A DNA stretch of 43,044 nucleotides from a virus. The stretch spans positions 1 to 43,044 of the IMG/VR virus record IMGVR_UViG_3300009008_000083. One strand, given 5' to 3'. Shown piece by piece: positions 4,817-24,947 of the stretch. Numbering within the stretch: the stretch's first letter is position 1; each line of letters starts with the position of its first letter. Position numbers and translations under genes: made by a program. Under the pieces are notes generated by a model. The model was not told the origin of the DNA, made no database searches, and saw only the letters and a program-made list of their open reading frames with translations.

Positions 4817-6256
4817 TTAGCCCTTCGGGTTGAAAACGGGATCAACATCGGGGGCTTTGCTCCAGAGGTTGGACAACTCATCAACCTCACCGGGAGCAGA
4901 AGCCGTCCGAGTCTGGCTGCCCAAGCTCTGGACACCATTCGAAGGCTTGCGGGGCTGCGGACGCTGGGAAGCGGTCTTCTTGGCTTCCTTCTCTTCCTCA
5001 ACCTCGGCCTCTTCCTCTACTTCCTCTTCCTCGGCCTTCTTGCCGTCATCTTCTTCGGCCTCTTCTTCAGCCGCTACCTTGCCGCCGAAGATCTCAGCCA
5101 GAATTGCGTCATCCTCTGCCGTGGTGCCAACGCCCATCGGGTCATCGGTCATGGCAAAGATTCCGGCCTCGTCAACACGCTCATCCGCAGACGCTTCCTT
5201 GTCGTCGTCCTCGTCCGCAGCTTCGTCCTGATCTTCAGCCAGAATGGGCTCATCCAGCACAGGCTCATCCATGATGGGCTCTTCCACGATGGGCTCTTCC
5301 ATCATGTCCTCGGCCATCGGCTCTTCGCCACATGCCTCGGCTTCCATCTCGGCCAGCAGTGCAACTTCTTCCGGGTCAAGGTCGTCAACCTCGGTCTCAA
5401 CATCCATCACTGCTTCGGGAGCCATGTAGTCCATGAACTCATCGGCGGTGATGATGCCGTCACCATCGGTGTCAATGGCGTCAAAGAGTGCCTTCTTGGA
5501 GGTCCAGTCGTCGGCGGTGACAAAACCGTCGTTGTCGGCATCCATCGAAGCGAACAGGGCACGGTGGGCCTTCTTGCTGGCTTCCTCGACCTCTTCCTCT
5601 ACTTCCTCATCGTCATCGGCGGCCTTCTTGCTGGCCTCCTCGACCTCTTCCTCGGCGTCATCATCGTCAGCGAGCTTGGCCCGCAGACGGCGATTCTCTT
5701 CGATGAGTGCCGCAACCTTGGGGTCTTCGTCTTCCGCCAGAATCCCGTCGATGTCCTCGTCCGTTGCTTCCTTGCCGTCCTCTTCCTCTACTTCCTCGGC
5801 AAGGAAATCAGCGTTCTTGCCCAGACGTTCGGCGGCTGCAACGATCTGCTGGTCGCTCCAGTCCATCAGGTCGTATGCCTGATCTTCGATCATCTCGGAC
5901 GTGACATCTTCACGGTCCTCAAGCATCAGGTTGGCCAGCTTCCAGCACTTGGTGGCCTTGGCAGCTACCATCTGCTTGAGGTCGGCTTCCTTGGGAACCC
6001 GAGGAGGGCTCTGGTGTGCCGGGTGATCCTGATCCTCGGCATCGTAGCCGGGGGTTGCAGGGGGGTTGCCTTCCGGGTACGGCGGCTCGTGGACATCCTC
6101 TGCCCATGCGGAGGGGTCACCCTCTGCATATGCTTCGTATGCCGGATCATCTTGGTGGGCCGGATGGTCCTGATCCTCTGTGCCATAACCGGGGGTGGCG
6201 GGGGGAGCAGATGCGTTGCGGCCCGCCGCCCACGTCGTGCGTTCTCTCTTCTTCAT
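4817..6256 (-). CDS. Acidic scaffold/prohead-core-like protein with two EF-hand calcium-binding loops
   Basis: This 479-residue protein is extremely acidic, with long Glu/Asp/Ala/Lys stretches probably forming helices or coiled coils (about 150-235 and 385-428). Two adjacent EF-hand loops are clear: DADNDGFVTADD (239-250) and DTDGDGIITADE (262-273). The second has Glu at loop position 12 as in canonical sites, the first Asp. The N-terminus holds two copies of a segment of the type ATPGYxxEDQDHPAHQ (about 20-35 and 67-82). A compact helical segment with one cysteine lies at about 89-155. Its start overlaps the protease stop by 4 bp (ATGA) and it precedes the decoration and capsid genes, the usual place for a scaffolding or core protein. 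Calcium binding is a strong prediction; a scaffold role is inferred from charge and position. Confidence 0.72.
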   Translation of the reverse strand: MKKRERTTWAAGRNASAPPATPGYGTEDQDHPAHQDDPAYEAYAEGDPSAWAEDVHEPPYPEGNPPATPGYDAEDQDHPAHQSPPRVPKEADLKQMVAAKATKCWKLANLMLEDREDVTSEMIEDQAYDLMDWSDQQIVAAAERLGKNADFLAEEVEEEDGKEATDEDIDGILAEDEDPKVAALIEENRRLRAKLADDDDAEEEVEEASKKAADDDEEVEEEVEEASKKAHRALFASMDADNDGFVTADDWTSKKALFDAIDTDGDGIITADEFMDYMAPEAVMDVETEVDDLDPEEVALLAEMEAEACGEEPMAEDMMEEPIVEEPIMDEPVLDEPILAEDQDEAADEDDDKEASADERVDEAGIFAMTDDPMGVGTTAEDDAILAEIFGGKVAAEEEAEEDDGKKAEEEEVEEEAEVEEEKEAKKTASQRPQPRKPSNGVQSLGSQTRTASAPGEVDELSNLWSKAPDVDPVFNPKG

Positions 6257-7797
6257 TTCTCGCTCCTTTGTGACGACTGGTGGTTGCAGTTTTCCCCCTG
6301 AGTACCTCTCTGGGAGATGATTTTGCTTAACCTATAAAGGGTCCAAGCTTCTTTCGTTGTGGGTCTACGTCCTAACACGTCCTTGCACCCCAGAAAGAAT
6401 GCACGACGGGACTCAAACCCGTTGTAGCTGCCCAGCTTCAACGCCGCCCGATAAAGGGGCACTGGAACATCGACACCCACACGCTGATTGTACGATGCAA
6501 TACTGTCAATCAACTGGATGTCACTGGACGCCGTTCGGATCAACGCCTCAACACCGGCCTTGTAGACCTGAAGGGCCGCTTGCTTCTGCACGTTCTCATT
6601 CTGGCTGGTAGACTCTTCCGTTCCGGGAACGTCTTCCTGCTCAGCCAGAGAATCCTGCAACCGCTTACGAACCTTCTTAAGGAGATGGTCCGTAACCTGA
6701 TCCTCTACATCCTTGAGCGGGTTGGCAGGTTCGGCGGGGGCTGCGGCGTCATCACCGCCGCCTTCATCCTCCTCATCCATCCACCCGGCCAAGAAAGAAT
6801 TGTCTGTTACGTAAGCGGTCGCTGCTACGGGTGACGTACCGACACGCCCTACTACGGGCATCTCTACGGAACCACCGTCCACCTTGTAGGGGGCCGTGGT
6901 AGAAGCTGCCTTCTGTTCCTTCTCGTCAGACCACTCCGGGGGTGGAGTAGCCAGTACCGCAGCGGCTTTCTCGCTGATCTTGTCATTCGGTTCAAGGACG
7001 TTCCGCAATACGGCCCCAGTGAAAGCGGGCGTGGCAACCCAAGAAGCCTCAATGAACGTGACCCCGCCGGTTGGCCCTAGGGACTCATGCCCACACAATT
7101 CGGCTACCCGGTGACGGTTTCCCTGATCATCAAGGAACTGGTTGCCCTTCTCGTACTTGATATGCGGGCACATCTCAGTCTCATCGGCTGCCCAATGACC
7201 GCACTTGGTACAAATGGTCCCGTCAACGGTACAACCCATTGACAAGGTTCCCATCTTGCCATTCAGGATGGCCTCGACCAGTTCAGCATGCTTCCTATCG
7301 GTCGCAATCAGAATATCAACGTACAGTGAATCTCCGATGTCACGGGACACCGCATCAATGATCCGCCCCTTGGACAGATCCTCAACCTGAACATGCTCTA
7401 CGAAATTGTGCGCCCCAACAAACGTGTGAAACGCTTGTTTGAGCACTCCTCGTGACCATGCATCCATGTTGTTGTTAATGAAGCGGTCCGTGTCAGCGGT
7501 GATACGGAAATCCGAGAACTTACGGTTTACTCGGAACCCATCCTCAACTACCGACCCCGTCTTGAGTCCAGTCGGACTGAACACATCAACGGAAGCAACG
7601 ATAGTGGCATGGGTCAACAGGAACTGGGAGGGGTCGAACTGCTGTCCGAACAACTCACCCGCTCGGTCAACGAGATTGGAACCCAGTGTACTGGCCTGAA
7701 CCTTGGAACCCTTCCCCGCCACACGGATATTCTGCCACTCGGTCCGTGTCACAAGGGGTCTCACCACCGCAGCGTTAGCGTACTTCATGAAAGCCAT
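6253..7797 (-). CDS. Head maturation protease (prohead protease) with inserted zinc cluster and long C-terminal extension
   Basis: This 514-residue protein carries the hallmarks of herpesvirus/phage prohead serine proteases in its first 270 residues: HNFVEHV (130-136) supplies the catalytic His candidates, GTLSMGC (183-189) the Ser186 nucleophile, and the strand FIEASWVATPAF (248-259) matches the conserved E-x-S-x-V-x-x-P-A element near the domain end. Between them lies a cysteine/histidine-rich insert (C196, C199, H201, C210, H212, C235, H237), likely a zinc site not usual for the family. The remaining 240 residues are acidic and then helical and could be a fused scaffold or targeting part. 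It starts at an ATG behind GGGAGGTG, overlaps the upstream gene's stop by 1 bp and couples to the scaffold-like gene downstream. Its targets should be the scaffold and head proteins. Confidence 0.8.
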   Translation of the reverse strand: MAFMKYANAAVVRPLVTRTEWQNIRVAGKGSKVQASTLGSNLVDRAGELFGQQFDPSQFLLTHATIVASVDVFSPTGLKTGSVVEDGFRVNRKFSDFRITADTDRFINNNMDAWSRGVLKQAFHTFVGAHNFVEHVQVEDLSKGRIIDAVSRDIGDSLYVDILIATDRKHAELVEAILNGKMGTLSMGCTVDGTICTKCGHWAADETEMCPHIKYEKGNQFLDDQGNRHRVAELCGHESLGPTGGVTFIEASWVATPAFTGAVLRNVLEPNDKISEKAAAVLATPPPEWSDEKEQKAASTTAPYKVDGGSVEMPVVGRVGTSPVAATAYVTDNSFLAGWMDEEDEGGGDDAAAPAEPANPLKDVEDQVTDHLLKKVRKRLQDSLAEQEDVPGTEESTSQNENVQKQAALQVYKAGVEALIRTASSDIQLIDSIASYNQRVGVDVPVPLYRAALKLGSYNGFESRRAFFLGCKDVLGRRPTTKEAWTLYRLSKIISQRGTQGENCNHQSSQRSEK

Positions 7798-8405
7798 CAG
7801 TTCACCTCCCGGTGGGTCACCCGGATGCGATGGAAAGGCTTTGGCTGTCGCTCAACCTCTTCCGCCTCTGGGAAGCCAAGAATGTCACAACGCTTGATCA
7901 GGAACAGGCACTGGGGGCAACCGAGTAGCCGCTCACTCTTACCGCCCCGCCGCTTGTAGGACGCTGGCTTGAGGCACTGGCCCTTACACTTGGGGCACAT
8001 AATGGAGCCGCCATCCAGTTCAGCCTTGGTCGCACGGTACAAACGGTCAGCAGAGGCCCAGTACAAGGCTTTCTTGACCCATCTATCCGCAATCCGTGAG
8101 GCTACCTTGACAGGAGCAACTGGACCTCCGGGTACGGAAACCGAACCTGCACCGCCCGGAACATTGTTGTGATCCTGTGCGGGGGGCCGGTAGTCCTTGG
8201 ACTCGTACCTCTGGAGTTCCTCTACGGGTCTGCGTTCCGATCCGTGCGGCCATTCAACGTCAACCATGCCAATAGCGGGATAGACAGCGACGACCCGCCC
8301 GGTCAAATCTGAATTCCCGCTCTGGAAGGGATACACAATATCCCCCGGAGCGAACTCAGACGCCCGTTGCTGGTAATCGACGTATGCTGCCTTCCGGTCT
8401 GTCAT
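7797..8405 (-). CDS. Unknown head-region protein: SH3/KOW-like domain plus zinc ribbon
   Basis: This 202-residue protein has three parts. Residues about 12-60 (FAPGDIVYPF...LTGRVVAVYPAIGMVDVEW) look like a small SH3/KOW-type beta barrel. Residues about 105-125 contain RIADRWVKKALYWA, a version of a short motif that recurs in other virion genes here. Then CPKCKGQCLKP and GCPQC form a four-cysteine zinc ribbon (about 135-170). The whole suggests a nucleic-acid or protein adaptor carried in the head. It lies between the polyvalent/acidic genes and the protease, and its stop overlaps the protease start. Function is not recognised. Confidence 0.65.
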   Translation of the reverse strand: MTDRKAAYVDYQQRASEFAPGDIVYPFQSGNSDLTGRVVAVYPAIGMVDVEWPHGSERRPVEELQRYESKDYRPPAQDHNNVPGGAGSVSVPGGPVAPVKVASRIADRWVKKALYWASADRLYRATKAELDGGSIMCPKCKGQCLKPASYKRRGGKSERLLGCPQCLFLIKRCDILGFPEAEEVERQPKPFHRIRVTHREVN

Positions 8406-8414
8406 GGAGACCCT

Positions 8415-9011
8415 CTAGGCTGAAAGGTTGAAGCCGTGGCTGGCCTTCTTCTCAGCCGCTACATCTTCGGCCTCACCCTCGGACTCCTCACCCTCGACCT
8501 CTTCATCTTCCTCGCCCTTCTTGGCGAGCTTGGTGACGAGGCCCAGCATCTCGTTCATGCTGGCAACGTGGGGGGTCAAAAGGTCGAGTGCCTCGGCAAG
8601 ACGGTCCTCGGCGGCTTGCTTGCCGGGAGTCGGGTCGTCCCGCTCCTGATCCTCCAGCCCGCCTTCCTCTGCCTTCTCACGAAGTTCCCGGTTCTCCTGC
8701 TGGGAGAAGTGGCCGTCCATGTAGGACTCATCCGGCTCGTCTTCCTGCGGACCGGCCTTCTCTTCGCCAATCTGCTCAGGGTCAAAGCCCGGCTCTTTCA
8801 CAGGGTCATCACCATCAAGAGCTTCCTTGGTCACGGGGTCGATGCCCGCACGCCGCTCAATGTGGTCGCCCAGAAGGTCGCACTTGTGAATGAAATCTGC
8901 CGCCACTCGCTCAGGAATCCCCAGCGTCTCCCGCTCCTCATGGAGCAGCGTCGCCAGCCGGTCCAGCGTCCCGGTAACTTCCAGAGCACCCTTCTTTGTC
9001 AACTGTGTCAT
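8415..9011 (-). CDS. Acidic helical head-region protein, unknown function
   Basis: This 198-residue protein is acidic and predicted largely helical. It ends with a highly charged Glu/Gly/Ser tail and a short basic end containing EKKAS. A near-perfect GAGGAGG site precedes the ATG. No motif is recognised. The charge profile resembles scaffold, internal or core proteins of phage heads, and its place between the polyvalent protein and the protease agrees. It could be a second core component processed by the protease. Confidence 0.6.
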   Translation of the reverse strand: MTQLTKKGALEVTGTLDRLATLLHEERETLGIPERVAADFIHKCDLLGDHIERRAGIDPVTKEALDGDDPVKEPGFDPEQIGEEKAGPQEDEPDESYMDGHFSQQENRELREKAEEGGLEDQERDDPTPGKQAAEDRLAEALDLLTPHVASMNEMLGLVTKLAKKGEEDEEVEGEESEGEAEDVAAEKKASHGFNLSA

Positions 9012-9057: not shown

Positions 9058-12000
9058 TCACGTCCTTCGCTCTTTATGGTCCCGATATAGAGAACAAACC
9101 GAAAAAAGTTTCGGCGTACCCCCCGGAAAAAAGAACCTATTTGCCCCCGCAGCCACAAACTTTTCATCCAGAACACCCGGATTTCCCTCTTCTAAAGCAG
9201 TCCTCAACTGAACTATTTTCGGGTGGTTTTCGTCCGTAATCCCGAAATCCTCCTCCATGACCCGCAACATTTCGGCGACCTGAATCAACTGGGCCTGATG
9301 GTCCAGTCCCTTACAGGATTCTTTGTCCTCAGCCTCGGCGAGACATTCATGGAACTTTTGAAGGGCCGATTTGAACTTGGGACTCTTCTTGACCCGCCGA
9401 TGAGCTTCTTCGGCCATCTCAGCGGACTCGGCCACATCCTTGGGAATCGGTAGGTCGCTCCCCTCTGGCACCCCGCCTTTTCTGCGTCCTTCAAACTCAG
9501 CCGTCGCAACAGCGTGCATCGAGGTCATGGTGTTCAGAGAAAGGTCACGCATCAAACCCCGGAGCATCTCACGCTGCCAAGGTTCTGTTAGTTCAGACAT
9601 TGCCTTCTGGATCATGCTCTCCAGTTCGCTGTCGCCACCCGCAAACAAGGTCGTCAGGTCATCATCACTCATCTCATCCATGTAGCCTCTGGCTTTCTCC
9701 CGCCCTGCGGGGCCGTAGAAATCCACGGACAACATGTCGCTGACGTCCTCTTTGTTGTCCTTGACCGTTTTGATCATCGACTTGGTCATCTGACTGGGTT
9801 CGCTAACAAGGGGGTTCCCGTCTATCATTCTGACATCCGGGTCGTCGTCCGCCGCTACGGACGCCAGCCACAAACCCTCCAACATCCGGGTCATCTGCTC
9901 ACGCTCGGCAGAATCCTCCGGCATATTGGTCAACTGTTCACTCGTCCGGTGAAAAGCCTCACGTCGGAGGTCAGAATCCAACTTGGAGAAATGCTCAAAT
10001 GCCTTCTTACCCCTTTCGTTCAGGGCATCTGAATCTTCCTTGCCTCCTGACAGGGGCAACACCTCGGTAGGGTTCGCCAGCACTTGGTGTGCAAAGGCAA
10101 GTTCGGCTGCCGATTCGCCGAACGATTCGGCGGACTGTCCCGGACGCTTGGCTCGGTTAGAGGCCGAGGACACCTCGTCTACCAGTTCCTCCGAAATGCC
10201 GGACAAAGAACGTCCCTTCAGTGATTTCCATTTGGAATGATATGCCTTGGCTGCTGCCTCTTGTGCGGTGTCGTTGTACTTGTCGTATTTGGAGGCAAGG
10301 GAGTCATCGGCTGCCTCTTGTGCGGTGTCGTTGTACTTGTCGTATTTGGAGGCAAGGGAGTCATCGGCACCCTCTAGAAACCCGTGTAGCTGGGTCACCG
10401 GAGGTTTTGATTCTGGGGGTTTGACCCCGGAACCCGATGACTCGTCCGGCTTCTGGGGCTTCTGGGGCTTCTCTTTCGTGTCTTGAGGCTTATCCGGCTT
10501 GTCCGGCTCTTCACCCTGACCTTTTGCAAACTCCTGCGCCTTCCCCTGATCCTTAAAGGTATGGGTGTTGCCCGCTGGGTTCATGCCTACCCAGCCCTTG
10601 TCAGTCTCCCAGACGTCTCCGGGCTTGTGTTCCGCTGCGAGTTTCCGCAACCAACGGGCCGCAACCCGCTTGTAGTTCTTGGACAGGTCTTTGTCCTTGT
10701 CCGCACCCTCGGTTTTCACATCAGGATCGTCGGGCTGCACTCTGTTCCGGCGGAGGTCTTGACGGGGAGGCTTCAACTTCGGTGCCGGGCGCACCATTCG
10801 CTCAGCTTCCTCGTCCTCTTTCTCTGCCGGGGTCTTGGTTGCCCACTTCTCGATACCGTCCGGGTCACGGCGTCCCCGCAATCGCTGTAGTCGTATAGCC
10901 GGACGAAGTTTCTCTTCCAGTGCCGTCAGGAACCCATCCGGGTGGTAACGCCCCTCTTTGGCTTTCTCAAATGCTCCAATAACGTCACGGGGATGGGGTT
11001 CTGGCACCGGAGTACCATGCTCACACCGGCAACCCTTACGAGGTGGGTTGGCGTCTTCACCCATCAAGACATGAACAGAGTGCTCATCACACCAGACCCA
11101 CTCATGCCCATTGGGACAGGAAAAACGGCTGGGCATCCCCCGTGTCTGCATCGAGTACCATTGACCGCACACGGGGCAATAACGATAGGGGTTGTCGTAC
11201 AAGCTCAGCGATTGCTGGAGACGCTCCTGATAGTATCCTTCGGGGGTGCCGTCCCAGTTGCTCGGTACCAACGTACCCTTGTAGGTCGTGGAGGCTTTCT
11301 TCTGACCCTTGGGCGTCGTCCCGTTGTGGGTGAACTGATCCTCCAACCCCGGCACAAGGTACTGAGACCGCAACGTCGCTGGCTCATGCCCTACCGTATC
11401 CGCAACCGCTTCAAGAGCCTTCTTGAACTCGGCCTTCAGAATCTTGTCCTTCTCCTTACGTGCGTGCAGGAGCTTCGGACCCTTAGCCCGTTCTTTCTTG
11501 AGAGCTTCTCTCATCTCCCGGTTCGCATGGAACCCCCGGATGTCCTTGGCTGTAATGTCATAGGGTTTGAGGTAGGTGTTGATGTCCGAGGCACTCACAT
11601 CCTCAAACACCTCGTCGTCTGCCCCCTTGCCCTTCAAAGCCTTCTTGAGAGCCGATACCAGTTTCTTATCCGTGACCTTCTTGTCGTGCTTGACGCCCGA
11701 TTTCCCTACGTACTTGAAGGTAACGCTGTTCCCGGAGAAGGTGATGTGCTTCTTGAGCCACCCAGTGACCCCGTAGTGCCCCTTTGAGGCGGACTCGTCA
11801 TTCCCTACCCGCTCGTAGGTTTCGTTGATTAGAGCTACCGCCAAGGCCGTCTGACGGGTCTTTCCATCCTCGGCCTTGAGGTCTTTCCCAACTTGGGTTT
11901 TCAGCTTGGGGAATTGGTCATCGAGTCGGTCGAGTCGCCGGGCCTTCTCCCGGTTGCGATGTTGGACCTGACCTTCGGTGTACTCGTAGACGGTCATCTC

Positions 12001-15000
12001 GCCGCCGTCCTGCTTCTTGACCGTCTTTTTGTCCTTGTACTTGCCCGCTGCACTTTTCAACCAACGGGCCGCAACCCTTTCGGAACTGGACTCCTCTACC
12101 GGACTGCCTCCGGTAAGTAGGGGGAAAGAATCGACCGGAATCTTCCACTCGCCCACTTCGGACCCGTCATCCCGCTTGATGTTGACGGCCATGTACTCGA
12201 CGGCCTTCTTCATATACCGGCGGGCAACCCGGTTGATAGCGGCACGCTTGCCCCATCTCTCTTCAAAGTGGTCTACATGATCACCCTTGAGCTTCTTCAT
12301 GGCGTACAGACCCAGAGCCTCACAGAAGTGCTCCTCCCAGTTCGTTGATGAATAAGGGGTTGGGAACTGACGTAGCTTCTGTATCTTCTTGCTCTTCTGC
12401 ATCTCAAACTGACGCAGATCGGCGACCGGGTAGGTCATGGGATGCAGCACCCCATTCTTGTCCTCGACATCAAAGTAGTACAGGCCGCCCTTGATCTCTT
12501 TGATGATAGGTCGGTATCCACGCTTGGTTCCTCGGTACAGAACGGGAAGTTTGTCCCCCACACTGGGGAGCTTTACGGAGTCGTCCTCCAACGCAACGTC
12601 TTTGCCGGACAGCCAATTGTGATACATCATCCAATTGGATTTGTCCGGGCCTCGGGCGAACTTGTCCAAGTAACGGTGTCCCAATTCGTGAACAAGAGCG
12701 ACGGCATCATCCCAGCTTCCATCTGATCGCCGGATGTAGATGTCATCTTCAGCACGGTAATACCACGCCACCGTCTTGGATTTCTGGATGCGGGCAACGA
12801 TGTAGATGTCCCCGTACAAGACCTTCTTGATCCCGGCGGGAATTTGGAGTCTCTTTATGGCAGCCGTGGCTTTCTTGATGATTGCCTTGACCTTATCCAG
12901 ATCACTGCCTTCCAACCCGATAGTGTTGTGAACGGTGAACGGACCCAACTTGAACTTCTCATCCCCTTCCGTCTTGTCGGGCCACTCATCACTCTTAAAC
13001 CGGAGCAGCCGAATTAATGCGCCGTTCTTTTCATACCACTTCAGAATGTCACGGGGCTTCCGGCGGGCACTCATGAACAGTCGTGAGGCTTTCTCAAACG
13101 CCTTGCGATCCTTCGCTGGGACACTCTTTTGATCCAAAATCGACCGAGCCAGTTCCCGCCCGCTCCTGATCAGGCCGTGCCACGCCCCCTCTAGGAACCA
13201 AGCATGTGTCCGAGGGTTATCCTCATCCCATCCCGGTTGAGACCGACCATAACTGAGGTCGTCACTGAAACCCTGTGCTGCATCGACGAATTGTCTGAAG
13301 TAGTACATGAAGCTCTTTGGCATCGCCATAGCTTCTTTGTCGGCTTCGGCCCGGCCCTTGTCATACCGAATCTTGAAGAGCTTGAGTTCCTTATCCTGCT
13401 TCCGGCCTTTGGGGTTCGGCTCAATGACCACGATGGGGTCACCGCTCTTCTCGTCCTTCTTGAACTCCTTGATCAACCCCCGCTTGTTCTTGTACTTGCC
13501 GTACAAAACCGGGTCGCCCTCATTCAAGGAAAAGGTCTCGGCTTCCGTCCCGGTTGCTGCTTTGCTCATCTGTTGTTTCACACGGGACTGCCATCGGGCA
13601 GGGCGGACCAACAGTGTTGGGTCATCCAACAGAACCTTACGGGCACGGGTAGTAATCTCTTGGATTTCCTTGCCCTTGAGTCCGAACTCCTTGATCAAGG
13701 CACCCATATCCAGACTCTTGCCCGGCTGGGACAAGAGAGCAACGAAAGATGCTGCCTCGGATGCGCTCATCTGCACCGTCAGTTCCCGGACCCGTTTGAG
13801 TTGGGGTCCATTCAGGAATGACAGTCGCTTACCAGAGGGCATCCCCAGATCCATGAGATCGAAAAGGAACTGTACGTCCGCCTTCTTGTCCGCCCAGTTC
13901 GCCAGTGCCTTCTGAAAGTTCCTGTCCGTCCGGGCAATCTCCTTCAACACATCGAGGAGTCCCAGCTTCTTCATCTCCAGCAATGCCTTCTTGCCCGTTC
14001 CTGCTTCGTAGAAGGTCTCAATCAGCATGTTGGACAAGTGACTGGAGGGGACATTCTTGAGCTTCTGTGCGTTCTTGAGGATGCTGGCCTTGACCTGTGA
14101 GTCAATCTTGAACCCGTACTTGATGAGGAACTTGATTGCCCGGATCATCCGGCTGGGATCATCTGAGAAGGTCTTGTCCGGGCTAGAGGGGCACCGCATC
14201 CAACCATCTTGAAGGTCACTGCGCCCGCACCCCGTCAGATCCAGAATCTCAGCCTTGTCAGGTCCATTCGCTAGATCATGAAGCCGCCACAGCAATGTGT
14301 TGAAGGTGAACTCTCGGCGGTTGATGTCCTCTTCGATGGTCGCCGGGGCTACCGTGTGGGGCTTGTACCCCTTTCCGGCCTCACCACCGTAAGATTCCTT
14401 CCGGGCGTTAGCAATCTCAATGACCTCGCCCTTGAGGGACTCGCCATCCAACACCCATTCACCCTTCACCGTGAGGATCGCAACACCGTACTGATTCGTC
14501 ACCAGACTCGTTTGAACTGGGATTGCCTTCTGGACCTTCTTGGCGAACCAGTCAGAACCTCTACCGTTCAAGGCCACCGAATCGATGACGACGTCGATAT
14601 CTTTGATAGGCTGATCGATAAGGAAGTTGCGTACCGCTCCGCCTACAACATAGACATGCTTGCCAACCCCTGATCTCTGGGCCACCCCGGACAGGAACTT
14701 CATCAAGGACACAGACTGCTGATGCTTTGAGGCATCAAGGTGACGCCGTGCAGTCCGTCCGGCCTTATTGAAGGGAATGATATGTAAACGGGGGAGACCC
14801 CAAACTTCCATCCCGTCAAAGGTCCAATCGACTACCGGGACATCATCCACATAGACGGAACCAACACCATCCATGTAGGAAAGAGTCGTATGGGGTTTGT
14901 AGACCAACGGGAAGCTGTCATCGACCTGAAAATCGTTTGAAATCAGTGCATCCCGGACCTTCCACCGGAGGGATGCCAAATCCCGGTCAAATCTCAGGGG

Positions 15001-15312
15001 CAGATACGCCACCCTGCGGTCTTTGTCCGGCTGGGGGAAATAGTCGACCGGCCCGGTGACACCCCGGACTGGAGCCTTGAACTCCATGAAGGTGTCCTCC
15101 AGTATCTGAAGGAACTCGGACTCTCGCTCTTTCGCCACGTCGCCGACATATAAGAAGGTGACATGACACGGGCTATTGTCCTCTGGTGCTCTGGACGGGA
15201 ACCCTTCGCATTGGTCCTCTGGCAGGGGGATAAACAGGCCAACACCTGTTCTATCACCGGTCTTCTTGCCGTCCTCTGCACTACCAAATCTGACTGTAGG
15301 TTGTCTGATCAT
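9058..15312 (-). CDS. Giant polyvalent protein: 2H phosphoesterase, CCA-type nucleotidyltransferase, HELGH metallopeptidase and topoisomerase IB
   Basis: This protein of about 2084 residues combines several enzymes. Residues 15-180 form a 2H phosphoesterase (2'-5' ligase-like) with HVTF (50-53) and HTTL (141-144). Residues about 220-470 match a poly(A)/CCA-adding nucleotidyltransferase, with GGAVRNFL (224) and the metal-binding DIDVVID (238-244). An SH3-like segment follows near 595-650. HELGH (875-879) marks a zinc metallopeptidase. Residues about 1080-1330 are a type IB topoisomerase with ERVGN (Arg1168), KDIRGFHANR (1256-1265) and the nucleophile in SQYLVPG (Tyr1318). A zinc-rich segment (about 1379-1431), a Pro/Lys-rich linker, a perfect 19-residue tandem repeat and a helical tail complete it. 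ATG 15312 is chosen for its GAGG site; ATG 15336 is possible but lacks one. Between portal and protease, it is probably packaged and injected. Confidence 0.85.
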   Translation of the reverse strand: MIRQPTVRFGSAEDGKKTGDRTGVGLFIPLPEDQCEGFPSRAPEDNSPCHVTFLYVGDVAKERESEFLQILEDTFMEFKAPVRGVTGPVDYFPQPDKDRRVAYLPLRFDRDLASLRWKVRDALISNDFQVDDSFPLVYKPHTTLSYMDGVGSVYVDDVPVVDWTFDGMEVWGLPRLHIIPFNKAGRTARRHLDASKHQQSVSLMKFLSGVAQRSGVGKHVYVVGGAVRNFLIDQPIKDIDVVIDSVALNGRGSDWFAKKVQKAIPVQTSLVTNQYGVAILTVKGEWVLDGESLKGEVIEIANARKESYGGEAGKGYKPHTVAPATIEEDINRREFTFNTLLWRLHDLANGPDKAEILDLTGCGRSDLQDGWMRCPSSPDKTFSDDPSRMIRAIKFLIKYGFKIDSQVKASILKNAQKLKNVPSSHLSNMLIETFYEAGTGKKALLEMKKLGLLDVLKEIARTDRNFQKALANWADKKADVQFLFDLMDLGMPSGKRLSFLNGPQLKRVRELTVQMSASEAASFVALLSQPGKSLDMGALIKEFGLKGKEIQEITTRARKVLLDDPTLLVRPARWQSRVKQQMSKAATGTEAETFSLNEGDPVLYGKYKNKRGLIKEFKKDEKSGDPIVVIEPNPKGRKQDKELKLFKIRYDKGRAEADKEAMAMPKSFMYYFRQFVDAAQGFSDDLSYGRSQPGWDEDNPRTHAWFLEGAWHGLIRSGRELARSILDQKSVPAKDRKAFEKASRLFMSARRKPRDILKWYEKNGALIRLLRFKSDEWPDKTEGDEKFKLGPFTVHNTIGLEGSDLDKVKAIIKKATAAIKRLQIPAGIKKVLYGDIYIVARIQKSKTVAWYYRAEDDIYIRRSDGSWDDAVALVHELGHRYLDKFARGPDKSNWMMYHNWLSGKDVALEDDSVKLPSVGDKLPVLYRGTKRGYRPIIKEIKGGLYYFDVEDKNGVLHPMTYPVADLRQFEMQKSKKIQKLRQFPTPYSSTNWEEHFCEALGLYAMKKLKGDHVDHFEERWGKRAAINRVARRYMKKAVEYMAVNIKRDDGSEVGEWKIPVDSFPLLTGGSPVEESSSERVAARWLKSAAGKYKDKKTVKKQDGGEMTVYEYTEGQVQHRNREKARRLDRLDDQFPKLKTQVGKDLKAEDGKTRQTALAVALINETYERVGNDESASKGHYGVTGWLKKHITFSGNSVTFKYVGKSGVKHDKKVTDKKLVSALKKALKGKGADDEVFEDVSASDINTYLKPYDITAKDIRGFHANREMREALKKERAKGPKLLHARKEKDKILKAEFKKALEAVADTVGHEPATLRSQYLVPGLEDQFTHNGTTPKGQKKASTTYKGTLVPSNWDGTPEGYYQERLQQSLSLYDNPYRYCPVCGQWYSMQTRGMPSRFSCPNGHEWVWCDEHSVHVLMGEDANPPRKGCRCEHGTPVPEPHPRDVIGAFEKAKEGRYHPDGFLTALEEKLRPAIRLQRLRGRRDPDGIEKWATKTPAEKEDEEAERMVRPAPKLKPPRQDLRRNRVQPDDPDVKTEGADKDKDLSKNYKRVAARWLRKLAAEHKPGDVWETDKGWVGMNPAGNTHTFKDQGKAQEFAKGQGEEPDKPDKPQDTKEKPQKPQKPDESSGSGVKPPESKPPVTQLHGFLEGADDSLASKYDKYNDTAQEAADDSLASKYDKYNDTAQEAAAKAYHSKWKSLKGRSLSGISEELVDEVSSASNRAKRPGQSAESFGESAAELAFAHQVLANPTEVLPLSGGKEDSDALNERGKKAFEHFSKLDSDLRREAFHRTSEQLTNMPEDSAEREQMTRMLEGLWLASVAADDDPDVRMIDGNPLVSEPSQMTKSMIKTVKDNKEDVSDMLSVDFYGPAGREKARGYMDEMSDDDLTTLFAGGDSELESMIQKAMSELTEPWQREMLRGLMRDLSLNTMTSMHAVATAEFEGRRKGGVPEGSDLPIPKDVAESAEMAEEAHRRVKKSPKFKSALQKFHECLAEAEDKESCKGLDHQAQLIQVAEMLRVMEEDFGITDENHPKIVQLRTALEEGNPGVLDEKFVAAGANRFFFPGGTPKLFSVCSLYRDHKERRT
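10253..10366 (-). repeat. Perfect 57-bp tandem duplication inside the polyvalent gene
   Basis: Two directly adjacent, identical 57-bp units (10253-10309 and 10310-10366) encode two identical 19-residue copies starting ADDSLASKYDKY. Identity at every third-codon position implies a recent duplication or ongoing homogenisation. The unit is in frame, so it only lengthens the protein. Copy number may vary between isolates. Confidence 0.97.
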
Positions 15313-15347
15313 GCCCAATCCTCGTACACTGGGCATATTCAATAGGC

Positions 15348-17051
15348 TTAGAACCGACCCCCGCCTTCCTCAGTGGGCTTCTCGTAATCAACACCCAAAG
15401 CATCGGCGAGTTTCTGCATCAGTTCAGGGGAGCCCTCTACCAGTGCATCGGCTGCCCGACCGTAGAGGGACCGGAGAAGCTCATTGAACGTAGCGTCGTT
15501 AAGGGTGAACAGGTCACGCTTCAACTTGTCCTTGGTGACAACCGGATCGATGTTGAGGAGGTCCAGAATCACATCGATGTCCAACGACCCCTTCTGGTAC
15601 AGGTTGAACAGGGCATCGAACGTGTCGCTGTTGTCCCGGAGTGCCAGACGGGTAAAGGACAAGCCCGGAACGATGACCTGCATGTTCCCGTCTTCATCCT
15701 CTTCAACAAACCCCATCCGGCGGCACATAGGACGGAAGAAATACTCCTCAACCAAATCCTGAAGTGCCTCACGCAGAAGCATGAATCGTGTGTTGATGAC
15801 CTCCAAATGGATGCGGTCACCGGAATAACTGGATTCACCGGACAAGAGGCTCTCGGTAACACCCAGACCGGCATACAACTGGCGGTCGGTCATATCGAAA
15901 ACCCATGACCAATCCGGCAGCCGCTGATCCGCCCCCATCTCCTCCCAGTTCACTTGGAAGTTCGTAATGATCGAGTAGTCGGGGTCTTGCAATGCAAGGT
16001 CCACCTGCTCCCGCAACTCCTCGGTCTGCTCATCATTCATGTGCTCGGCAAAGATCAAACGGAAAGGAGTCATGTGCCGAGAAGCAATCGATGTCAGTGA
16101 CTGACGGACCTTATCCCGGAAGATCAAGGTCCGCAAACACCGTTGGAGGATGGATTTCCCGTGCTCTTCGTAGTCCGACCGCTTCCGTTCCATCACATGG
16201 ATAAAGGAACCGGCATCGGGATCGGTGTTCAGGTTCAGGTTCTCACCATTCAGGATAGCCTCTACAATCTCTTGAGGCATACCCCCAACGACACGCTGAG
16301 CATGGGGATCACCCTGCTGGGCTTTGTCTACAACCGCTCGCTGCTTGCTGTCGGGTACGAACTGGATGAGCTTTTCATCGGTGAAAGCAAAACTCTCACT
16401 CTTCACCTGCTCAGGGGGCAACACTCGTACCGCAGTCCACCCCTTGTAGTTCTTCTTGAGCCACGCCACCTCACGTTCATCAGCGTCCTCATACTCTTCC
16501 CAGCGTTCTGCCAGCGTCCCGTCCGCCTTGACCTCCCGGACCAACTCGGCTCTCACAGTGTTCGGCATCTCCGGGTTGGTATCCTCACAGAAGATGTTGA
16601 CCACCCCTAGAAGGTTGTACTCATGGGTGATGGAGATCATCCTCTGGAGTAACTTGATCTTCTTGGCCCACCGTTCACAGAATCTCAGGGACCGTTCCGC
16701 CAGATCCCTGTTCTTTGCTTCGGGCATTCTCAACCGAATCTTGGACAGAGGTAACTCGGTTGTCAGATCAACGGCTTGTCCAACAAAGGGCTCATGGTCG
16801 TAGAAGAATCGATAAAAGTTGAGCTTTTCAGCCTGACTCTGCGGCAGTTCAAGGAAATCGGTAGACAGTTCGGGACTATAGAAGTTGCCCCCAGAACCCA
16901 TCACGGAACCACCGGCAGCCGGGAACCCCGTTGCTACCTTTGACCGCATTGCGGAAGTGATAATCTTCCCCGGCTTTCCCGTCTGAACCCCTTTACGAGT
17001 TGGTATGTCCCGGACCTCAACGGTGTGCTCCGGGTTGTTCTTCTTAGCCAT
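15348..17051 (-). CDS. Portal protein
   Basis: This 567-residue protein is the likely dodecameric portal at the DNA-packaging vertex. It has the length and layout of portal proteins: a flexible N-terminus, the opening YRFFYDHEPFVGQAVDLTTEL, a central alpha/beta wing, and the segment MTDRQLYAGLGVTESLLSG followed by a long helix (HLEVINTRFMLLREALQDLVE), which matches the late stem/clip region of phage portals. The C-terminus is acidic. It lies between the large terminase (with two small genes between) and the polyvalent/protease block, the standard packaging order. The ATG follows a G-rich site (GGGGGG). Family assignment is by pattern and synteny. Confidence 0.85.
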   Translation of the reverse strand: MAKKNNPEHTVEVRDIPTRKGVQTGKPGKIITSAMRSKVATGFPAAGGSVMGSGGNFYSPELSTDFLELPQSQAEKLNFYRFFYDHEPFVGQAVDLTTELPLSKIRLRMPEAKNRDLAERSLRFCERWAKKIKLLQRMISITHEYNLLGVVNIFCEDTNPEMPNTVRAELVREVKADGTLAERWEEYEDADEREVAWLKKNYKGWTAVRVLPPEQVKSESFAFTDEKLIQFVPDSKQRAVVDKAQQGDPHAQRVVGGMPQEIVEAILNGENLNLNTDPDAGSFIHVMERKRSDYEEHGKSILQRCLRTLIFRDKVRQSLTSIASRHMTPFRLIFAEHMNDEQTEELREQVDLALQDPDYSIITNFQVNWEEMGADQRLPDWSWVFDMTDRQLYAGLGVTESLLSGESSYSGDRIHLEVINTRFMLLREALQDLVEEYFFRPMCRRMGFVEEDEDGNMQVIVPGLSFTRLALRDNSDTFDALFNLYQKGSLDIDVILDLLNIDPVVTKDKLKRDLFTLNDATFNELLRSLYGRAADALVEGSPELMQKLADALGVDYEKPTEEGGGRF

Positions 17052-23751: not shown

Positions 23752-24609
23752 CTACAACTGGGAGGGCAACTCCTCAACAGGAACCCCGAAATCCTCCGCA
23801 ATCGCTTGCTGATCCAGCCGGAATCCTCGGCCCGTCCATTCAATGTACCGATGAGCAACCATCCACACGACACGGGCAGCCAAGGTTGCGGGCAACAGTG
23901 AGAACGTCCCCAACTTAAATGCGTTCAACAGGAACCCCAGCCCGGAACTGGGAAGCGAAGCTAACAGGTCCGATAGGGACAATGACCCGGTGATTGCATC
24001 GGTCAAGCCTTGCATGTCCCATTCGAACTCAACCACGTTCATCCAGATCCAGATGTAGATTGCCGTGATCAGAATGGCGGACAGTGTCGGGGTGGCTTTC
24101 CTCAACCACTCCCCGAACTGGTCGGCCTTGACCTTTGCCTTGGCAAAAAATCGGGTAGCTGCTGGGGATTTCTTGATCAGCATGTCGATCAAGGCGTTCA
24201 ACCCGTGCAGCTTGCCCTTCTCTAATGTGTACACCTTCAAAGGCCACTTCTGAAATGCCTTGTCGATGACCCCCCGGAGTGCCTTGTAGCCCCGCTTGGC
24301 AAGTTCCTTGATGGCCTTGGGGATATCGGTCAACTTCTCGATTCCGAGGAGTTTCTTGAACCGCCCCCAAAGCCGGGGTGTCTTGCCGAACATCTTGATG
24401 AGTTGCTTGGCCTTCTGGACCAACCCTCGGAAGGCAACCCGCCCCGTGTACATTGGGAGGTAGAACCCCTCAAGAAAGGCTTGGACGACCTCGGGGGTCA
24501 AACCTTGGGCCGAAGCCCTTTTGGTATAAGTGGCGGGGATGTCGTAGACCTCTTGTACGGCTAACTTGACCAGATAACGGTCGGCGACCCTTTGGACTGC
24601 TGGTTCCAT
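23752..24609 (-). CDS. Unknown virion-region protein with membrane-active segment
   Basis: This 285-residue protein starts at ATG 24609 (MEPAVQRVADRYL) behind GGGGAGTAGGTG; a GTG at 24630 would overlap the upstream gene. The N-terminus has the recurrent motif RVADRYLVKLA (about 6-16), then YTKRASAQGL. The middle is basic and helical. At about residues 178-200 lies a clear transmembrane-like stretch (LSAILITAIYIWIWMNVV), and a second hydrophobic helix (about 235-260) follows. A virion protein with membrane segments could help DNA pass the cell envelope or be an internal ejection protein. That role is inferred; no family is recognised. Confidence 0.6.
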   Translation of the reverse strand: MEPAVQRVADRYLVKLAVQEVYDIPATYTKRASAQGLTPEVVQAFLEGFYLPMYTGRVAFRGLVQKAKQLIKMFGKTPRLWGRFKKLLGIEKLTDIPKAIKELAKRGYKALRGVIDKAFQKWPLKVYTLEKGKLHGLNALIDMLIKKSPAATRFFAKAKVKADQFGEWLRKATPTLSAILITAIYIWIWMNVVEFEWDMQGLTDAITGSLSLSDLLASLPSSGLGFLLNAFKLGTFSLLPATLAARVVWMVAHRYIEWTGRGFRLDQQAIAEDFGVPVEELPSQL

Positions 24610-24614
24610 CGCAC

Positions 24615-24947
24615 CTACTCCCCGAACCACTCCCGCTCTAGGGACTGGGATGCGAACATCGCTGACGGCAACTTAAGGCCCAGTGAGTTTGCGGCCTTGA
24701 AGATGTTGTTCCTGAGAAGTGAATTATCGGCCTTGAGACCATTCTTGGCGATCCACATCAACCGACTCAGAGCGTGCTCAGCCCCCCGACTGATCTTCAG
24801 TTCCTTGGCCAGCTTGTCCATAACCTCCCGCAACAATTTAGCGGACTGGTCATCCGCCCCGTGGAGGCTGCGATGGACACGCACCAAATCATCATAGTCG
24901 GCAAGTTGCCGGAGTATGTCCCACCCAGAATCTGATCCCGTTTTCAT
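24615..24947 (-). CDS. Small helical protein, unknown function
   Basis: A 110-residue protein starting at ATG 24947 (MKTGSDSGWD) behind GAGGGTG; this start sits 2 bp after the upstream stop and avoids a long overlap. The sequence is helical and mildly charged, with no cysteine or known motif. It lies in the virion gene block between two unknowns. Confidence 0.55.
   Translation of the reverse strand: MKTGSDSGWDILRQLADYDDLVRVHRSLHGADDQSAKLLREVMDKLAKELKISRGAEHALSRLMWIAKNGLKADNSLLRNNIFKAANSLGLKLPSAMFASQSLEREWFGE

Follow-up and report, generated by a model that had tools for sequence, protein, structure and literature searches.

A giant multi-enzyme protein at the portal–protease interval of a huge-phage clade, and a recurring RVAxRYL peptide that may mark virion cargo

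How do huge phages select the enzymes that are carried into the cell? The question is raised by a 43-kb IMG/VR virus contig (record IMGVR_UViG_3300009008_000083; its whole length of 43,044 nucleotides is the window analysed here), in which one giant open reading frame (ORF) lies among the head genes. It runs on the minus strand from 15342 to 9058 and encodes 2094 aa from a TTG start at 15342, with an ATG two codons later at 15336, and the exact start is uncertain; all modules, tags and genes given window coordinates below are on this strand. An earlier note, made from the sequence alone, had found the right frame but gave its extent as 9058–15312 and about 2080 residues, and it listed the enzymes but overlooked both a recurring RVAxRYL peptide and a conserved C-terminal core module. 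An assembly artefact or chance frame was rejected, as the 6.3-kb frame has colinear fused relatives. We give a slightly better than even chance to the reading that the giant protein is polyvalent cargo of a huge-phage clade: it would be incorporated into the prohead core, leave the particle along with the DNA, and bear RVAxRYL as a capsid-targeting-like tag.

Enzymatic modules and the portal–protease interval

The topoisomerase IB (TopIB) catalytic module (11317–12048, residues 1099–1342) matched profile PF01028 (5e-29) and, by PDB sequence search, D. radiodurans TopIB. The closest solved fold to its AlphaFold model was variola TopIB (Foldseek, 3e-10), and bacterial TopIB was also matched. Its full catalytic set (R1178, K1214, R1269, H1319 and Y1328) was invariant in 18 of 18 relatives. 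Close relatives of the module occurred in only 2 of 84,980 species, both metagenome-assembled contigs. The CCA-type (class II) nucleotidyltransferase module (13573–14724, residues 207–590) matched PolyA_pol (PF01743, 6e-14), a phrog tRNA nucleotidyltransferase (3e-29) and CCA/PAP enzymes by sequence in the PDB, and Foldseek ranked CCA-adding enzymes first for its model (4e-10). The class II fold keeps the motifs GG, DxD, RRE (E instead of D in 19 of 20) and DP[ST]R; where alignment rows seem to lack the second G, 2H-only fragments are the cause. The 2H phosphoesterase module (14770–15270, residues 25–191, with H60-x-T62 and H151-x-T153) gave no Pfam match above threshold in the window protein itself; the homologous module in relatives matched PF13563 (7e-11), and HxT...HxT was invariant in 24 of 24. 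Its family profile retrieved LigT/ThpR phosphodiesterases from the PDB (6e-6), and its model matched drCPDase, LigT and Usb1 (5e-6 to 4e-4). These three activities had been proposed in the earlier note, which named structure prediction as their check, and the AlphaFold and Foldseek runs returned all three folds. The fourth module (12247–13176, residues 723–1032) is a putative zincin-like metallopeptidase, assigned from an HExxH motif (HELGH; H885, E886 and H889) and a distal Glu (E1004 or E1008 region) that were invariant in 15 of 15.

The 2H and nucleotidyltransferase modules might also act on something other than RNA ends in need of repair. An injected protein could use them on immune signals or host RNA, by degrading cyclic or 2'-5' oligonucleotides or by RNA tailing, with TopIB and the peptidase as separate host-takeover activities. 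RNase or oligoadenylate-degrading roles are proposed for polyvalent 2H domains by Iyer et al. 2017 (PMC5512222), since these lack ligase partners. Viral 2'-5' oligoadenylate phosphodiesterase and poxvirus cyclic GMP-AMP phosphodiesterase also resemble the 2H model, with weaker scores; a tagged 2H protein elsewhere in the LR745208 genome (5e-13) has a weak Acb1 match; and PcnB and CCA models score alike for the nucleotidyltransferase, all under their cut-offs. However, the best 2H matches are the RNA 2',3'-cyclic phosphodiesterases LigT, ThpR and drCPDase, and the best structure matches of the nucleotidyltransferase are CCA-adding enzymes. The 2H and CCA modules are also often side by side in relatives, and the set also contains HAD_SAK RNA-repair domains. 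We consider action on immune signals or host RNA unlikely, and tRNA-end chemistry by the 2H and CCA modules plausible, although the giant chain has no ligase.

As the earlier note had stated, the giant ORF lies between the portal (15348–17051; phrog_16240, 1.3e-27) and the head maturation protease (6253–7797; phrog_18299, 2e-13), from which two small genes separate it. The window order is TerL, two small genes, portal, giant ORF, two small genes (8415–9011 and 7797–8405), prohead protease, an acidic EF-hand protein, a small gene and the major capsid protein, the last and the scaffold being named from position and conservation in relatives. A portal search yielded 67 related loci, and a TopIB alignment yielded 147, of which 80 were kept, on contigs of up to 619 kb. 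Across these relatives the 2H, CCA, SH3-like and metallopeptidase modules come in varying order, as separate ORFs (L057, L085 and L002), as fused pairs, or joined in one chain that can reach 2806 aa, and TopIB and CCA are also found as standalone ORFs. The order that follows is constant in the main group: TopIB, a KPPR motif, the C-terminal module, the 8415-like gene, the 7797-like gene and the protease. In the window, the motif (KTPAEKED..KPPRQDLR, 10720–10848, residues 1499–1541) precedes a C-terminal module (9358–10242, residues 1701–1995) with a confident helical model that no solved structure matched, and which we propose to be a prohead-core part. The 8415-like gene is fused to this module in several relatives, and phages without the enzymes retain the KPPR motif and the 7797-like gene.

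Domains are thus shuffled within a fixed locus, and by its sequence the portal–protease interval of this clade is an expandable cargo site; the C-terminal part of the giant protein would be the head gene and the N-terminal part the cargo. The pairing of tRNA-end enzymes with TopIB in one chain, which the earlier note had called unusual, is not so within the clade: by module maps at least 13 distinct phages, counting the window phage, fuse CCA and TopIB, eight fuse 2H, CCA and TopIB, and four (the window, L006, L026 and L063) have all four enzymatic modules. The enzyme combination is normal in the clade, and the new part is the modular cargo site together with the common peptide.

Large insertions were also seen in four relatives (L007 11771–20188, L063 2260–5532, L072 14881–17676 and L204 15059–19174), their types comprising a CCA-module intein with LAGLIDADG (3e-12), a portal LAGLIDADG and a protease intein/Hint. 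In one relative, the TopIB ORF (L002 1854–8180) has by eye Ntn-hydrolase-like (CIIAGRKFDDDVCLFKNRDR) and ParB-like segments as well, neither of which Pfam detected.

The RVAxRYL peptide and its carriers

Three copies of RVA[AR]R[WY][LM] occur in the giant protein: RVARRYM at 12211–12231 (residues 1038–1044), RVAARWL at 12058–12078 (residues 1089–1095, directly before TopIB) and RVAARWL at 10648–10668 (residues 1559–1565). More copies lie in two other window genes; RVADRYL stands at residue 14, near the N-terminus of gene 23752–24630 (24571–24591), and the small gene 7797–8405 has a tag-like RIADRWV at residue 104 (8076–8096). The pattern R[VIL]Ax[RK][YWF][LIVM] was found 12 times in the 536-kb genome G001, where shuffles gave 0.4, and 8 of the 12 lay no more than 15 aa from an end. 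Reversed and scrambled patterns gave 0–1 matches there, and five came from a relaxed variant whose first residue is acidic. Observed and expected counts were 14 v 0.5 in G002, 4 v 0.35 in G009, 4 v 0.7 in LR745208 and 64 v 1.0 in the clade loci, all from simple longest-ORF gene calls. As the motif was defined after it had been sighted in the window and its relatives, the guards are a matrix trained without G001, which gave 15 matches in that genome against 0.4 at score 14, and control phages. The first controls (three other huge phages, 100 kb of E. coli and 50 kb of Myrna) were small and mostly AT-rich. Two wider sets from unrelated phages were therefore added, one of T4-like genes (161,195 aa) and one of Myrna-like genes (70,686 aa), and no copy was found in their total of 231,881 aa. 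A composition effect was rejected by the shuffles, the reversed and scrambled motifs and the unrelated phage genes.

The peptide is specific to the clade's proteins in these comparisons, and it is placed between modules. In 136 non-redundant cargo ORFs, 71 copies fell outside enzymatic modules and none inside, the modules making up 33% of the residues tested; related copies preceding TopIB are not independent events in this count, so its significance is overstated. Standalone modules carry a copy at the ORF end (2H in L213 and L225, CCA in L211, metallopeptidase in L083, TopIB in L193 and L227). Taken together, 105 copies have the approximate consensus SxAxRVA[AS]R[YWF]LxA. Codons were scrambled among the copies, and therefore selection acts on the peptide; a DNA element or recent duplication was rejected by the same randomised codons. 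No paper with the motif letters was found in the open-licence literature.

Tagged proteins outside the cargo locus include an ART-PolyVal (5e-9), a DnaJ (2e-11), a SWIM, a ferritin-like, a HAD_SAK_1 (2e-15) and a C39 peptidase protein (1e-8). A second, divergent TopIB (3e-17) in G002 (C1:81025–84575; L118 1025–4575) has two RVAxRYL tags and an HExxH segment. This second TopIB gene adjoins a tagged HAD_SAK protein and the phage tRNA array.

These placements would fit a plug-in code for virion loading, by which gaining the helix, whether at a terminus or between fused modules, would be enough for any protein to enter the prohead and reach the host, and the giant ORF would be a string of individually tagged cargos. 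We put this at a little short of an even chance. The peptide could instead be a processing site of the prohead protease or a simple helix for interaction between modules, marking points of cutting or docking and not cargo. Its position at module borders would suit such a role, head proteins of T4 and phiKZ type are cut beside short motifs, and the T4 targeting sequence is itself removed. However, an L/I-x-E, A-x-E or A-E follows the tag in only 12–13 of 105 copies, and the tag is common at the extreme N- and C-termini of small proteins with a single domain, which would gain nothing from a cut there. We regard cutting or docking as the doubtful explanation.

The closest parallel to a loading tag is in T4, where a 10-residue capsid targeting sequence loads unrelated proteins into the prohead, some of which are ejected (PMC9026906). 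As with the T4 internal proteins IPI–III and Alt described there, a short peptide is common to effector-like proteins that are otherwise unrelated, and one of these is, like Alt, an ADP-ribosyltransferase. Unlike RVAxRYL, the T4 sequence is N-terminal and cleaved at L/I-x-E; RVAxRYL has other letters, occurs at both ends and between modules, and shows no cut consensus. We found no sequence homology to the T4 capsid targeting sequence, gp67, gp68, IPI–III or Alt. RVAxRYL is used in a pattern similar to the T4 signal, yet it is not that signal.

If the tag is a loading signal, it would read out each phage's list of injected effectors from sequence. A peptide that can be recognised from sequence, is absent from the control phages examined and marks proteins with established effector domains would allow the injected enzymes of uncultivated phages to be predicted and tested, and RVAxRYL could be used to load proteins into large phage heads.

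Proposed working of the cargo protein

The polyvalent type named in the earlier note is borne out by the locus. The chain combines unrelated activities (2H, nucleotidyltransferase and TopIB folds) in a virion or late gene setting, with portal, TerL and protease adjacent in the window and likewise in relatives. Domains of the polyvalent network are present as well: a metallopeptidase-like and a 2H domain in the window chain and, by Pfam and PHROGs on 28 orthologous cargo ORFs, InPase, LPD1, GNAT, PRTase, HAD_SAK, PAP2 and DarB-like domains. The polyvalent proteins of Iyer et al. 2017 (PMC5512222) share the long chains of unrelated enzymes, the late or virion neighbourhoods, the variable architectures and the zincin-like peptidase with 2H. 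They differ in that the present proteins sit at a fixed place between portal and protease, carry a conserved core module at the C-terminus and have the RVAxRYL peptide in common. The headings of that paper include 2H and minimal Pol-beta nucleotidyltransferases and neither a CCA-type enzyme nor TopIB, and the word "topoisomerase" occurs in it once.

The giant protein would be synthesised late, along with the head proteins, and would enter the prohead core by way of its conserved C-terminal module. The T4 gene order is portal 20, 67, 68, protease 21, scaffold 22 and major capsid protein 23, and the giant ORF holds a place between portal and protease that matches the prohead-core genes 67 and 68. 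RVAxRYL helices on the giant ORF and the other tagged proteins would act as capsid-targeting-like tags, the neighbouring prohead protease or the protein's own metallopeptidase might trim the product, and the class and locus suggest ejection with the DNA. Inner-body and ejection proteins of phiKZ and SPN3US offer a likeness (PMC10052503 and PMC13282480): the heads of these huge phages are rich in internal proteins that are believed to pass into the cell, and a prohead protease matures them. However, those are mostly separate proteins with no RVAxRYL-like tag described in the available text, and we found no homology to them.

Once inside the new host, RNA or tRNA 3' ends that host defence has damaged may be repaired by the 2H and CCA-type modules, and the ATP-independent TopIB may relax the incoming genome for early transcription and replication. 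Poxviruses carry TopIB inside the particle for early transcription, and the variola enzyme is the closest solved fold to the phage module; there it is a free enzyme, whereas here it shares one chain with RNA-end enzymes and a module of the phage head locus, and virion packaging is only proposed. TopIB and RNA-end enzymes together hint that relaxed DNA and intact tRNAs may be the first needs of such a genome.

A protein that is not injected would work during assembly or inside the producing cell, with TopIB for packaging or replication and CCA for the phage's many tRNAs, and would share no more than its translation with a head-core gene. G001 (L097–L099) and G002 (L118–L120) each have a tmRNA and about 70 tRNA genes, and standalone TopIB and CCA ORFs exist in relatives. 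By a crude test, 65 of 70 tRNA genes encode CCA in G002, which has the CCA module, and therefore maturing its own tRNAs is not what the CCA enzyme is needed for there, a result that favours tRNA repair. The company of ART-PolyVal, InPase, LPD1 and DarB-like domains and the fusion to a conserved head-locus module also speak for an injected cargo, and we hold the non-injected protein to be quite improbable.

Several results weigh against the tagged, ejected cargo protein. The same crude test found CCA in only 23 of 68 G001 tRNA genes, where tRNA maturation is possible and which favours a protein that stays in the cell. In another group of relatives TopIB lies outside the interval, in an ORF of its own (about 350 aa) upstream of the portal, and G020, a relative without TopIB (L136–L150), has no RVAxRYL copy in 290 kb. 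The scarcity of cut-site consensus beside the tag, given above, counts against trimming there as well. For the metallopeptidase named in the earlier note, the active-site residues are conserved, but no solved structure matched the fold: there was no match in the PDB profile search and no zincin among the top 50 structures matched by the model.

Remaining segments and neighbouring genes

A small SH3/KOW-like module 'GDPVLYGKYKNKRG' (13357–13527, residues 606–662) recurs in relatives, its fold being suggested by the sequence and the strands of the model. The zinc-rich segment of the earlier note is present as a Cys-rich stretch (10993–11217, residues 1376–1450) that is possibly zinc-binding, but as a conserved domain it found no support: it is private to the window phage, its own profile retrieved only itself, and its model had a predicted local distance difference test score (pLDDT) below 50.

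The acidic protein in the scaffold position (4817–6256) has a pair of EF-hands (Pfam, 2e-10), which could point to calcium binding in the prohead scaffold. Adjoining the major capsid gene, the ORF at 982–2898 appears by eye to combine a LAGLIDADG-like homing endonuclease N-part with a DNA methylase-like C-part (SPPY motif). A 57-bp tandem repeat lies inside the giant ORF at 10253–10375, with 2.2 copies and 96% match (DDSLASKYDKYNDTAQEAA).

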